The translations under genes and the position numbers were made by a program. A stretch of DNA of 64,000 bases. Source: Apostichopus japonicus (lineage: Eukaryota > Echinodermata > Holothuroidea > Aspidochirotida > Stichopodidae). This document shows, piece after piece, positions 21,606 to 50,189 of this stretch (its first letter is position 1; the number at the start of each line of letters is the position of its first letter). The DNA lies in NCBI RefSeq assembly GCF_037975245.1, contig NC_092563.1:5519501-5583500 (forward strand), in the 5' to 3' direction. The notes below the pieces were generated by a model, which worked only from the letters and a program-made list of their open reading frames with translations, did no database searches and had not been told where the DNA came from.

Positions 21606-23740
<2,135 letters not shown>

Positions 23741-24071
23741 TAGAGCTGCTATTAAACTGGAATTCAAACAAACTTGGATTTGTTTGAGCAATTAGTAGGT
23801 CTCCCTGCAAAAATCTGCATTGGTTTTTTAAGCTGTCACCAATTGACATGCGACATACTTCACCATTAAAGGAACGGTCGGAAGAAGCGATCGTTGTTAA
23901 CTTTCGAAACCATTATTCAAAATTTAAGGGAAATATCCATGTGATAAGGGGAAGGGCAGGCTCACTAAAACTCATTCTGTACTCTCTACAAATACAGAAG
24001 CTATGTAGTGAGTGATTCATGCTTCGTTGCCAGCAAAACGTTGTCAAGGTAAATGTCAGCGGTTTAGCTAA

Positions 24072-38076: not shown

Positions 38077-38258
38077 TTATCTTTCCGTTACGCGGACTCT
38101 GAACGGTAAAGGTGATCGCGCTACACCGGTAGTACCAGTAGTGACTGAGGGCGTTTCATGACCATCGGGTGTTTTCAAGGTAAATTTCTGCAAGACACTG
38201 CACGTTATCACAAAAAGCTCCCTCCACGCTAATTGTTCACCAATACAGGAACGCATAC
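38077..38258 (-). CDS. Cytochrome P450 exon 3: heme-binding loop and C-terminus
   Basis: On the minus strand the exon follows the acceptor gtccacag, and two bases complete a Gly codon. It reads GMRSCIGEQLAWRELFVITC and ends ...SPLPFRVRVTER before TAA at 38077-38079. With exon 2 it forms the heme loop LGMGMRSCIG, where Cys439 should be the axial thiolate. The usual first Phe of FxxGxRxCxG is Leu432. The exon is 182 bp and encodes 59 complete residues plus the stop. Confidence 0.93.
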
Positions 38259-38618
38259 CTGTGGACAGGACAAAGAAAGATAATATTTACATATAGGGCT
38301 GTTGATGAGATCAAACTGCATGAGACAATGATAGAATATAAAATACGAATAGATGAATCCATGGCAAAGTATACGTATGAATTTGCAGAGTCGGTCCAGG
38401 GTAGAATGCGGGGCTCGTGAAAGGGTGACTTATTGATCTGCACATGGTCGAGGAGTACTAAGTTAGTTCGAACTGGCTTCCGGTTCATGGGTTTCGACGT
38501 ACCACCTCCCCCCCCCCCCCACTTCAGTCTCCACCCCTCCCCCAGCCGTCTGAATTGGAGCTTATGCGCGGAAAAGCCGTGTACAGACATGGTTCACAAG
38601 AAGGATAACATTTCTTAC

Positions 38619-39560
38619 CCATTCCAAGCGGAATCAATTCTTTTGGTCTGTGATATTTTCCCTCGGCGTCTAAGAACCTCTCTGGTTTCAGTTTTTCTGG
38701 TTCCGGGAATATTTGTGGATCCATCATGATACTGTTAAGATTTGACATAAAGGTAGTTCCAGTAGGAAATCGGTAGCCTTGGAAGGAGACGTCTTTAGTA
38801 GCGACTCTCGGAACGCCCAATGGCGTGACATTCGCTAGCCTCGCACATTCCGCGACCGTTGCTTGCAAGTAAGGTAAGCGATTTCGGTCTTCATATGTCG
38901 GAGAGGATTTCCCAAGAACGCTGTCGATTTCAGTTTGACATTTAACCTGAACTTTCGGGTTATTTATAAGATAAACCAAAACCGATGAAAGTAAGTTTTT
39001 TGGTACATTAGTGCCACCTAGGAACATTTCAAAGGCTGCCATGACTAGGTTATCATCAGTGAAGTGATGATGTCCCAGGGACTCACTGTTATTTTGTTGC
39101 ATAAGCAAATAGCCATCGATATAACAAGATGGCGTCGCGGACTCATTAGCCAAGTAATGTTTGCGTTCTTTGATCAACTTGTTGATCAAAACCTTGAACC
39201 CTGAAAGTTTTCTCTTGATTTCCGCCGGTGATCCAAACGGTAAGTTGAGTGAGTAGTATAACGTAGCTGGACCGTGTTGTGTGAAGACAGTATCCATGGC
39301 TTCAACTAAAACCTTAAAATCTTCGCTAGAGTAATCGAGCCTCTTTCCGAAAGTTATCTTAGTAAGGATGTTGTACAAAGCTGGTCGGTAGAGGTCCCGT
39401 TGAATATCTATCGAGTCCTGTGATTGGTCAGTTAACCTTTGCACGATTATCTTTGTTTCATCCGCGACAGCTTGGTCTAAATATTCTGACGCCTTTTTGA
39501 AAAAACCTATTGCGTAATGCCTTTGGCAAGACCAAGATTTTCCTGATGCGGAGGCGGGAC
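38619..39560 (-). CDS. Cytochrome P450 exon 2: most of the catalytic domain
   Basis: This large 942-bp exon lies between ccctaccctgcag and gtaagaaa on the minus strand. In the 494-aa numbering it carries the C-helix WSCQR (130-134), an I-helix region FLGGTNVPKN (300-309), the K-helix ExxR as ECAR (358-361) and PERF (413-416). The order and spacing are those of a class II microsomal P450 of the CYP2 clan, closest by eye to CYP1/CYP2-like enzymes. The I-helix is unusual: A/G-G-x-E/D-T is replaced by G-G-T-N-V. Substrate cannot be inferred. The reading frame is intact, so a recent pseudogene is unlikely. Confidence 0.95.
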
Positions 39561-41853
39561 CTGCAGGGTAGGGGGAAAATAGAGAATCACTATGGTTACT
39601 TCTGACTGAAATACAGACTATTTCATTAATGTCTTTATAAAAATAAAACAAGCAGTTACCCCTCCAAAGACAGGTTCCCTTTTTTAAGTTTACCATTCCT
39701 CTTACTCGACTCGCCTCTTAATCTCACACCAACAAGCACACCCATGCACGCACGCACGCACGCACGCACCCAGGCACGCATCCAGGCACGCATCCAGCCA
39801 CACAGAAAGGGACGCACCCAGGCACGCACCCAGATACAGAGGGACTCTTAAATTGCAGTGGACCTATTCAATCGCGTCAGAAAATCATTTCCGTAAGTAG
39901 AAACGCGTCTTATACCGCTCTTTAACCCCTCCTGTCCCGTCCTCTTACCCCATCCCAACCCGTGGTACATAAACTTAAATACGAAGTGGAGCTAAGTCAA
40001 TTCTACATGACTTCGTACCAAATCGTGAATATAGTCATTCTTGTCACTTTTTGATTTGCAGGCTATGCATGTTAGTCCGAGCAGGCATTGCATACCCCTC
40101 AAACAGTCAAGGAAGTATTTTAACATTGCACGCAGCATGTGTATCTCGCATTTAATGCCAAAAAAAAGATGATAGGAATCGACCACATATCCTGCTACAT
40201 GTAATCAGGAAACTGCATTCACTATAATTAGAATAAGGAAAACACACAAATTTCTTTCCTAACGCAATCCAGGTCAGTTCAAACCTGGTCAACTACGTCG
40301 TTGCCTTACTTAATTTGTCCGACAAATTAGTTGACATATATAGTCTCACGTTTGAATTAATATTGTATGGCGTCGTCATAACATAACTTTAAAATAATTG
40401 TTCATGATGGACAAGTAACGATGTTCTGTCCCTCGTAAATGTGCTTCTTATGGCAAGTATAAGCCTCCATCGACTGAAGGGCACACAGTATACTTCAGAA
40501 GACTGAAAATGATACACAAACCCAACCATTAGCTTTCGCTTATAACGACGTCAGTTTCTTGTGAAGAACAAGTCGCCCAAATAGGATAAAACTGTTAGCA
40601 GTGAAATTGACACTGAAACCAATACTATATCATTGTAGGTCATTTTAAAAGCTTCAAAATTGTTTTACTTCAGCATCTGCAAAAACTCCAAAATCTCCAT
40701 AGCAGAAACTAAACATTGTAATCAATAAAGAACAAACAATAGATCAAAATACTGAACATGCGGCTCGATGATGTCATATTTAGACTTCGTCAAGTCTTTC
40801 GATCTTGTGCAGAAACATCAACTTTGTTTGCTCAGCTATTTGGGGACTTTGTGAATAACAGTTACCTCTACCACATAGGCCTAGACTAATAATGATGGCT
40901 GGGATTTACTATGTCTGCTTGAAGTATTTGCGCGTAAATCAGCGAAGTCCGTTAGATATCGCAGCATGCATAATGTAACACTTATAGCAGTTCGGAGAGA
41001 AATTGTATAACATCATAACTATAGTCTTAGAAATGAAGGCGAACTTTCAGGATGATTTGAAAGAAATAAGTGAACCATCGAATGAGCTTTATCAGTAGAA
41101 TTGATCAAACTATTATATCCAAAACTCCTGGTTGATGGAAAAGTCGATAATATGTAGGAATTCTTTTAGTATAGTGGCGTACGTGTACTAATCCTATAAG
41201 TCAGTTTTGAGGATTTTTATAAGATCGATAGTGATAACACCCATGGAGTGAAAATCGACTTAAAATGGCCTTCCGTTTTGACATTGAACTGACCCTTCAA
41301 AAAGAAACTTCCGCTGCAATATAGACTTCCTCAGATTGTCTTCTGTTAGTCAGAACTCGACGGAAAACCATCGTTTTCATTAGTTAGAATGAAAAAAACT
41401 TCAAAAGACGAAAGCTTCCAATTCGACACAAATATAGTTACTGGTCAGCGAGATTACAGGTATGAAACAGCTAGGGTACTAATGCGCAAGTCCGTGATCA
41501 GACCAGAAGTTATACTTCGGTCCATATTTGTCAGAGTAATGACATTGGCGATTTACATATGTCATTTAATGTATAGAGCCGGTATGAACTGGCCACTCTT
41601 TAAAGTTGCAAAAACCAAGATGGGATATCTTTTAGATATGTGTTACCAAATGAGGATAACTTTGTGTGGGTGTGTGTTTGTGTGATTTATGCATATGCGA
41701 CATTAATGGGAATTCCTATGAAACTTTGTCAAATTGGTTGAATTAATTTTTGTTCTTTAAGGCCACCTTTTTTATGATCTTTGAGAGCAACATAGAAAGT
41801 CACTCCGTTGTCCTGAATGAGTAACCATTTATAGAATATATGACAACACGTAC
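39561..41853 (-). other. P450 intron 1
   Basis: The 2,293-bp intron contains a CACG/CAGG-type simple repeat (about 39733-39835). The open frame at 41389-41685 on the plus strand has no recognisable product. No other gene is seen. Intron 2 (38259-38618) is 360 bp and contains a poly-C run. Confidence 0.8.
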
Positions 41854-42214
41854 CTTTTCCTTCACCAAGAGCTGCCGCAAATGTGTGCGATTGGCTGCGC
41901 CCGTCGACGTCCGGGTGATTGAAAACCTCATCGATGCAATCATAACCGTTCAAGATATACATGGTTTTTGGTCCAAATTTCAGGGGATATATTTTGCCGT
42001 AGTCTTTCGCCCAGTCGTTTATCATTTGAAAAACATTCGGGACAGCTCGTCCCCTGAAGAGATGCAAGTGACCGAGTAAGGGGTATCCAGGGGGCCCCTC
42101 TGGTAACGGCTTCGCGTTTTCATCTTCTGGACCAGTTAAACGCTTCCTCCGCCGAGATGTTATAACTGCAATCGAGCAAACCACAACAACAATTGAAAAT
42201 AATAGAACAAACAT
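41854..42214 (-). CDS. Cytochrome P450 exon 1: membrane anchor and N-terminal region
   Basis: I place the start at the ATG at 42214-42212 because the upstream in-frame codons include a GTG (42241) but no ATG before an in-frame TGA. The protein begins MFVLLFSIVVVVCSIAVITS followed by RRRKR, a typical ER signal-anchor (about residues 2-18) with basic stop-transfer. A proline-rich hinge follows, with PEGPPGYPLLGHL at 38-50. The exon ends ...ALGEGK plus the first base of a Gly codon before gtacgtgt. The CDS over three exons is 1,485 bp, 494 aa, normal for the family. An upstream coding exon cannot be fully excluded. Confidence 0.92.
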
Positions 42215-48070: not shown

Positions 48071-48647
48071 GGGGTACACCCCTCAGTCCGACAAGTTTTC
48101 AGTCCGACAAGTTTTCAGTCCGACAAGTTTTCAGTCCGAAAATAAAATACACGTTTTCAGTCCGAAAATGAAATACACGTTTTCAGTCCGAAAATGAAAT
48201 ACACGTTTTCAGTCCGAAAATGAAATACACGTTTTCAGTCCGAAAATGAGATTCACGTTTTCAGTTGGGGAATGAAGGCATGCAGTTTTAATGCCATAAT
48301 ATCACCAATAAACAGTGACAGCCCGAACTGGTAGTAAAGAAATCGATTGAATCTTTTTATTAAGTCTCACATCACCGGCCTCAACAAAGACTTGGGACAC
48401 CTAAACAACTATCAGTTCTACAAAATATGTAATCCGTTCTTTGCTCCTTAATCCGCTTCCTGTATAGTCATGGTTTATTTGGTTCTAATTCCATCAATGC
48501 AATTTACACTTACCTAGCGTCTAACTTTCATTGTGTTACATTTTGTACTTTTCATTCGACTGCCAAGTATTGCTGACGAAGGTCCCTGGAGGACCGAAAA
48601 TTCCAATATATTTTCTAAAACTTTACTCCTTATTTGTCAATTATGAG

Positions 48648-48695
<48 letters not shown>

Positions 48696-48950
48696 ATAAT
48701 GAACAGTATATATTTAAGCTCCGACTGAAAACGTGTCGGACTGAAAACGTGTATTTTATTTTCGGACTGAAAACGTGTATTTTATTTTCGGACTGAAAAA
48801 GTGTCGGACTGAAAACTCGTTTTTTCGGACTGAGAACGTGGATTTTATTTTCGGACTGAAAACGTGTCGGACTGAAAACTCGTTTTTTCGGACTAAAAAC
48901 GTGGATTTTATTTTCGGACTGAAAACGTGTCGGACTGACAACGTGTACCC
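48071..48950. mobile_element. Nested foldback element with 8-bp target duplication (inner)
   Basis: It begins GGGGTACAC and ends GTGTACCC, flanked by the perfect direct repeat AAACCATC (48063-48070, 48951-48958). The left arm (to about 48265) is made of TTTTCAGTCCGAAAATGAAA-type units of about 26-28 bp. The right arm (about 48720-48945) has the same units in inverse orientation, in several length variants. The unique centre contains the TTTTCTAAAACTTTACTCCT sequence shared with the palindrome at 24.5 kb, and a TA microsatellite. It lies inside the outer foldback element. Confidence 0.9.
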
Positions 48951-49453
48951 AAACCATCATACTTTGCGTTCATTGAGCACTGAAGGTGCAAGCATGTTTG
49001 TGGACAATGGGTACGGGACTATAAACCAAACAAATCGCGGGAAATTTGAGAAAACATCATTGGCTGTATTTAGCATGAAAATCACTGTAATAGATATGTT
49101 GTTAGCTCTGCATGGAAGCAACTTGCGGTTGATTGTTATAATTTGTTGAAAAGAAAGAATGATGTTCGTTCACAATGTTTTACAACAACGGAACTTTAGA
49201 TAGCAACGAAAGTGTAGACATCAACGTGAGTTTAGACATCAACGTGAGTTTAGGCATCAACCGTAAGTTTAGAAATCAACGTGACTTTTAGACATTAACG
49301 CGCGTTTAGTCATCAACGTGACTTTAGACATCAACGTAAGTTTAGACATCTTCGAAAAACAGCAACATGGTAAAATAGCAGCAACAACTGTAGTTTAGAC
49401 AGCAACAAACTTAGTTTAAACAACAAAATATTGTTGCCCTGTTCGCGTTCCAT

Positions 49454-49965
49454 ACCTGTGTTATTCAAGTTTCAAGTTTATTCAATCTCTGTGCACCTCA
49501 CTCTTGTGAGGTATGTAGAGTACAGATATGCTTACAAAGTTCATATGACAAGAACGTTGACAAAAATAGAAGACTATTGTGTTAAAGTTGATTACGTCAC
49601 TGCAACTGCCCTTTTCAATAGTGCGTTTCCTGTATAGTTCTAATCAACCGGCCACAAATATAGCGCCTTTGTATTCGATCACAAATCATCGACATCGAAC
49701 ACACCGGGGTGTTACGTACATAGTTATGTCACCTATAAATAGATCTAAATGAATGCATGCCAGTGTGTATTGCCCGATTTTAACGGAAGTGCCTAAAAGT
49801 GCGTTACCCATTGCGTATAATATAGGGTGTCCCGTCGTATGACATGAGCGTTCGGTATGGTAGTAGGTGGACCTGTTGGTAATTCCAGCATTAAATCATC
49901 AGATAATGGCCTATCAAGTTCGGTTTGCGGTCCAAACCAGAAAGTTATACCATTTCGACTATCTA
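49454..49965. other. Non-coding, nothing recognised
   Basis: This is unique-looking sequence between the outer foldback element and the TGTA microsatellite. No exon is supported. Confidence 0.5.
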
Positions 49966-50189
49966 TTGTATGTATGTATGTATGTATGTATGTATGTATG
50001 TATGTATGTATGTATGTATGTATGCATGTATGTATGTATGTATGTATGTATGTATGTATGTATGTATGTATGTATGTATGTATGTATGTATGTATGTATG
50101 CGTGTATGTATGTATGTATGTCTTGTATGTATGTATGTATGTATGTATGTATGTATGTATGTATGTATGTATGTATGTATGTATGTATA
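49966..50189. repeat. (TGTA)n microsatellite, about 55 units
   Basis: A near-continuous TATG/TGTA tract with a few interruptions (TGCA, CGTG, a TCTTG break at 50122) adjoins the SINE at 50190. A TATG tract also adjoins the related SINE copies, so this is probably the expanded CATA tail of a minus-oriented SINE. Overlapping open frames on both strands are pure repeat. Confidence 0.95.

Follow-up and report, generated by a model that had tools for sequence, protein, structure and literature searches.

A full-length CYP2-clan P450 of the sea cucumber Apostichopus japonicus with Asn-Val in place of the I-helix acid-alcohol pair

The window, a stretch of 64,000 nucleotides (G000:C3:5519501-5583500) from an assembly of 671.6 Mb in 35 contigs, carries a P450 gene, hereafter the target, on its minus strand (38077-42214). 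The gene has three exons of 361, 942 and 182 bases (the last including the stop codon), separated by introns of 2293 and 360 bases with canonical GT/AG junctions. Its product has 494 aa, with no internal stops. Exon 1 (41854..42214, minus strand) encodes the start Met and an N-terminal hydrophobic anchor, then a basic stretch, SRRRKR, and a proline-rich hinge (PLPEGPPGYPLLG), the anchor and hinge resembling those of microsomal P450s; its donor GTACGT lies at 41853-41848 on the same strand. Exon 2 (38619..39560, minus strand), with the acceptor CTGCAG and the donor GTAAGA, contains the C-helix WxxxR, the I-helix, the K-helix ECAR and KPERF. Exon 3 (38077..38258, minus strand) holds the remainder of the heme loop (GMRSCIG, with the Cys ligand) up to the stop codon. 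Thirteen paralogues (L011-L022 and L032) each gave a single match, spanning roughly residues 121-435, with the same limits as exon 2 of the target. The match limits suggest that the intron positions are common to the target and these paralogues.

The Pfam p450 profile matched residues 38-489 of the protein with 310 bits. WxxxR, ExxR (ECAR), PERF and the heme Cys loop were all found, in agreement with the original prediction, which held that all core motifs other than the I-helix are intact. That statement has to be narrowed by two Phe to Leu changes in the heme region. One is the first residue of the heme loop, LGMGMRSCIG (IPLGMGMRSCIG), and is its sole departure from FxxGxRxCxG; the other affects the Phe preceding PERF.

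Of the 27 ORFs (at least 110 aa) in the window, 10 were scanned against Pfam: nine had no match and one, a 123-aa open frame at 23372-23743 (plus strand), gave weak leucine-rich-repeat matches, the best with an E value of 0.00019, below the Pfam cut-off. The scan for bacterial-type promoters and terminators stayed at chance level. Dense tandem arrays, with units of 63, 26, 16 and 18/36 bases plus about 55 copies of TGTA, occupied positions 48083-50188.

Among 293 PDB matches, the target was closest to human CYP2R1 and CYP2C8. A 40-row tree computed without the I-helix columns nested the target among CYP2-like paralogues, in a 15-row clade with 93/87 support. By its sequence, the target is a member of the CYP2 clan of P450s. 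It resembles CYP2R1, CYP2C8 and the three-exon paralogues in its anchor, WxxxR, ExxR, PERF and Cys loop, and differs from CYP2-clan P450s in having Asn-Val-Pro for acid-Thr, the heme-loop Phe to Leu change and fewer proximal basic residues. Prostacyclin synthase (CYP8A1), of clan 7, reads N-M-G-P and shares with the target an Asn followed by a hydrophobic residue with a Pro close behind, but its Pro sits one residue further on. Membership in CYP8 or clan 7 was rejected, as no CYP7 or CYP8 chain occurred among the best 60 of the 293 PDB matches. Membership in CYP74 was also rejected, with no CYP74 among the same 60 and GGTNVPKN set against the groove motif FNTWGG. Scoring of 87 of the 169 candidates revealed no close second copy of the gene, and the best other genomic match was ~34% identical. 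A literature search, whose coverage excludes most subscription journals, found no paper on the target gene and none joining sea cucumber, CYP2 P450 and I-helix.

The I-helix of the target reads F300-L-G-G-T304-N305-V306-P307-K308-N309 (codons TTC CTA GGT GGC ACT AAT GTA CCA AAA AAC). With its GGTNV, it departs from the motif [A/G]GX[D/E]T. This motif is usual and not obligatory among P450s (PMC4229089), and the departure is therefore no bar to membership in the CYP2 clan. The alignment of the target with CYP2R1, CYP2C8 and eight paralogues from its own genome is gap-free around the motif. Because of this, the conserved acid and Thr positions, whose residues serve in oxygen activation in most P450s, correspond to Asn305 and Val306 (AAT GTA, 39004..39009, minus strand), exactly the replacement originally predicted.

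The motif comes from one assembly only, and could in principle be an artefact of sequencing, assembly or the gene model. We consider this very improbable. To turn AAT GTA into any codon pair for an acid plus Ser/Thr takes at least three base changes (1 + 2), and a single sequencing error at this codon pair, a possibility raised in the original prediction, is thus ruled out as the explanation of Asn305-Val306. The motif lies in the middle of exon 2, where the frame aligns without gaps before and after it. A frame or splice error behind the odd motif was rejected on the same ground, frame and alignment being intact on both sides.

A Pfam search of the same genome recovered at least 96 P450 stretches (92 of 384 candidates scored). 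The fetched loci gave 73 I-helix rows, or 60 distinct ones after removal of 13 rows from overlapping loci. Acid and alcohol were both kept in 53 of the 60, one alone was kept in two, and neither in five. Two of these five were doubtful, L044 lying, in our judgement, at an exon edge and L053 being a stretch with an in-frame stop. The clear pair-less genes in this genome were three: the target (N-V-P), L035 (N-A-S) and L072 (N-P-T).

In the tree, whose bootstrap was unsettled and in which several rows were long, the target fell in a five-row clade (95/86) with C23a, C23m, C5a and C5b, each of which has E-T; C17a, which reads D-S, adjoined this clade (91/76). As the aligned rows derive from open frames, a small number of their residues at exon edges are read-through. 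Since the nearest paralogues keep the acid-alcohol pair, the loss is placed on the target's own branch. The target, L035 and L072 sat in different clades of the tree, pointing to separate losses. It is near certain that the target is a full-length, membrane-anchored CYP2-clan P450 and that both residues of the acid-alcohol pair were lost along its own branch.

The other two clear pair-less genes differ in structure. L035 (655-2136; G000:C19:1.57M) is an intronless P450 with a 494-aa open frame, CYP1-like by PDB match. Acid and Thr are absent from its I-helix, GVANAS, with a one-residue alignment gap behind N-A-S; it has WxxxH in place of WxxxR, and CxA in place of CxG in the heme loop. L072 (G000:C3:20.63M) is a five-exon CYP2-like P450 with the I-helix SSSNPT and Gln for the C-helix Trp. 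A heme-loop exon similar to that of L072 was found at L038 (C20:27.3M), and no I-helix or upstream exon was recognised there within the stretch fetched. Another locus, L077:3779-6535 (G000:C17:15.17M), had a 919-aa open frame, with the P450 K-helix/meander only within its last 79 residues.

Conserved columns were defined as those kept in at least 90% of the paralogues, and 33 could be scored for the target. It kept 29 and changed four. The human references changed four of 33 (CYP2C8, a working enzyme) and none of 33 (CYP2R1). Across 35 genes, two had seven changes each and two others had four, which puts the target towards the upper end. Its end branch was also longer than usual, 1.12 per column vs a median of 0.61. 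Neutral drift over this branch would have produced ~37 stops, when the branch length measured in the exon-2 region is applied to the full protein; none was seen. Sequence comparison thus rules out an old decay of the gene; missense changes may have abolished its function recently. Since the heme Cys loop and the remaining core are preserved, purifying selection acted for most of the target's branch.

The original prediction had favoured a changed chemistry over decay. The zero stops and the 29 of 33 kept columns bear this out for old decay, which is unlikely, and leave recent decay by missense changes as a possibility. The target may be losing, or may have lost, catalysis, either as a recently decaying gene or as a heme protein retained to bind or transport a ligand. 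The long end branch and the two Phe to Leu changes agree with such a loss, as does the divergence of the other pair-less genes, L035 having altered 9 of its 32 conserved columns and L072 6 of its 26 (7 of 32 on a wider column set). Arguing the other way, the target has no stop, frameshift or splice defect, changed no more conserved columns than CYP2C8, and lacks every one of the stops expected under drift. Lost catalysis is on balance an unlikely explanation, if one to be taken seriously.

Asn is found at the acid position in the solved structures of prostacyclin synthase (QGNMGP) and allene oxide synthase (CFNTWG). It is also found there in CYP7A1 (QANTIP) and CYP8B1 (QGNTGP), named in the PDB as a mono-oxygenase and a hydroxylase, respectively. 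Occurring in both isomerases and mono-oxygenases, Asn alone does not discriminate between them. CYP5A1 presumably retains its Glu. The bacterial, soluble CYP107A1 (P450eryF) has, in its solved chain, the I-helix AGFEAS, with the acid kept, unlike in the target, and Ala for Thr, the Thr being absent from the target too. It hydroxylates all the same, and Ser or Thr at this position lowers its activity (PMC10741444). The original claim that loss of the pair marks isomerase- or dehydratase-type P450s was therefore too strong, given these enzymes and the I-helix losses in other invertebrate CYPomes.

Of four motifs compared in Capitella, the I-helix was conserved least well, and all but thirteen P450s kept at least three of six I-helix residues; CYP39B1 has ASLANA, and EST support exists for the two oddest P450s (PMC4229089). 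Cnidarian CYP20 genes are degenerate at the I-helix, whose variation the authors regard as not uncommon (PMC8110760). As in the target, the I-helix departs while K-helix and Cys are kept in CYP39B1, CYP3067A1 and the cnidarian CYP20s (PMC4229089, PMC8110760), and the Asn-Ala of CYP39B1 compares with the target's Asn-Val. These P450s belong to other families than the target and are likened to it by description. With such precedents, animal P450s with a degenerate I-helix are already known and the target is another, new case.

The residues that would contact the P450 reductase were also compared. CYP2 enzymes dock the reductase through basic residues on their proximal face, and for CYP2B4 we take the contacts to include R122, R126, R133, K433 and R443. 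At the equivalents the target reads S, H, K, M and W, thus one basic residue in five, with an Arg directly beside the R443 equivalent that was lost (AWRE). For 28 of the 38 genes assembled from this genome, a subset of its P450s, every one of the five positions could be read. The target and L072 scored 1/5 and L035 2/5, vs a mean of 3.84/5 in the 25 pair-bearing genes. The combined score of the target, L035 and L072 is 4/15, and 3 of 3276 gene triples, counting this one itself, came out that low, for five positions that were selected after the target sequence had been seen. After near-identical copies were collapsed, 3 of 2024 triples were at or below the pair-less sum. Two pair-bearing genes, C23a and C2i1, also scored just 2/5.

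The depleted patch may mean that the target depends less on the reductase, and it fits a reductase-independent, hydroperoxide-type chemistry. L035 and L072 are more divergent, and loosened constraint or general divergence in the pair-less genes could therefore yield part or all of the same correlation. Yet C23m, which by its branch length has diverged further and which changes 7 of its 26 conserved columns, has four basic residues.

With both residues lost and the basic patch depleted, our best single guess from the sequence, held tentatively, is that the target performs peroxide chemistry; lost catalysis and an unusual mono-oxygenation follow closely behind. The protein would still bind heme and would act although the usual proton relay is gone, depending little on P450 reductase. 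The likeliest route would start from a substrate already bearing a peroxide, e.g., a lipid hydroperoxide or endoperoxide, to be rearranged at the ferric heme as by prostacyclin synthase and the CYP74 enzymes. Asn305 would face the peroxide, and Val306 and Pro307 would make the groove hydrophobic. The similar N-M-G-P of prostacyclin synthase speaks for this route, and the shifted position of its Pro speaks against it. PMC10813956 describes CYP74 enzymes as needing neither O2 nor donors, with prostacyclin and thromboxane synthases as analogues.

The target could instead still be an O2/NADPH mono-oxygenase that takes its protons from the substrate or from ordered water, as in CYP107A1, perhaps at a low rate or on one easy substrate. 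The microsomal-type anchor and core motifs suit this, as do the activity of CYP107A1 with Ala for Thr and the Asn of CYP7A1 and CYP8B1. However, CYP107A1 keeps its acid and CYP7A1 and CYP8B1 keep their Thr, whereas the target has neither acid nor alcohol, and its proximal basic positions are depleted. We rate such a mono-oxygenase as rather doubtful, a shade below lost catalysis.

The peroxide reading could be extended to a wider, improbable proposal. A CYP2-clan P450 would have become a reductase-free enzyme rearranging lipid peroxides, independently of CYP5, CYP8 and CYP74; the CYP1-like L035 and the CYP2-like L072 would have gone the same way separately, each with Asn at the acid position, the loss of the relay being coupled to that of the docking patch. 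If peroxide chemistry is the true reading, the drug-metabolising P450 clan can yield isomerase-type enzymes, and loss of the relay together with loss of the proximal basic patch would be a signature for finding others. If it is false, the target is one more divergent invertebrate P450.

Elsewhere in the assembly, contig C35 (L080) had a cox1 frame that stayed open over 517 codons when read with mitochondrial table 9, 5 or 24; with the vertebrate table 2 it did not. It had 11 AAA codons, which among those tables just table 9 reads as Asn. The AAA sites include positions that we take to be invariant Asn, in STNHKDIG, GFGNWL and RNINTTFFD. The C35 sequence fits the mitochondrial code of echinoderms and flatworms and so supports the echinoderm origin assumed in the original prediction. 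On C29 (14745-31219), cox1 was fragmented and may represent a mitochondrial copy that was rearranged or misassembled.
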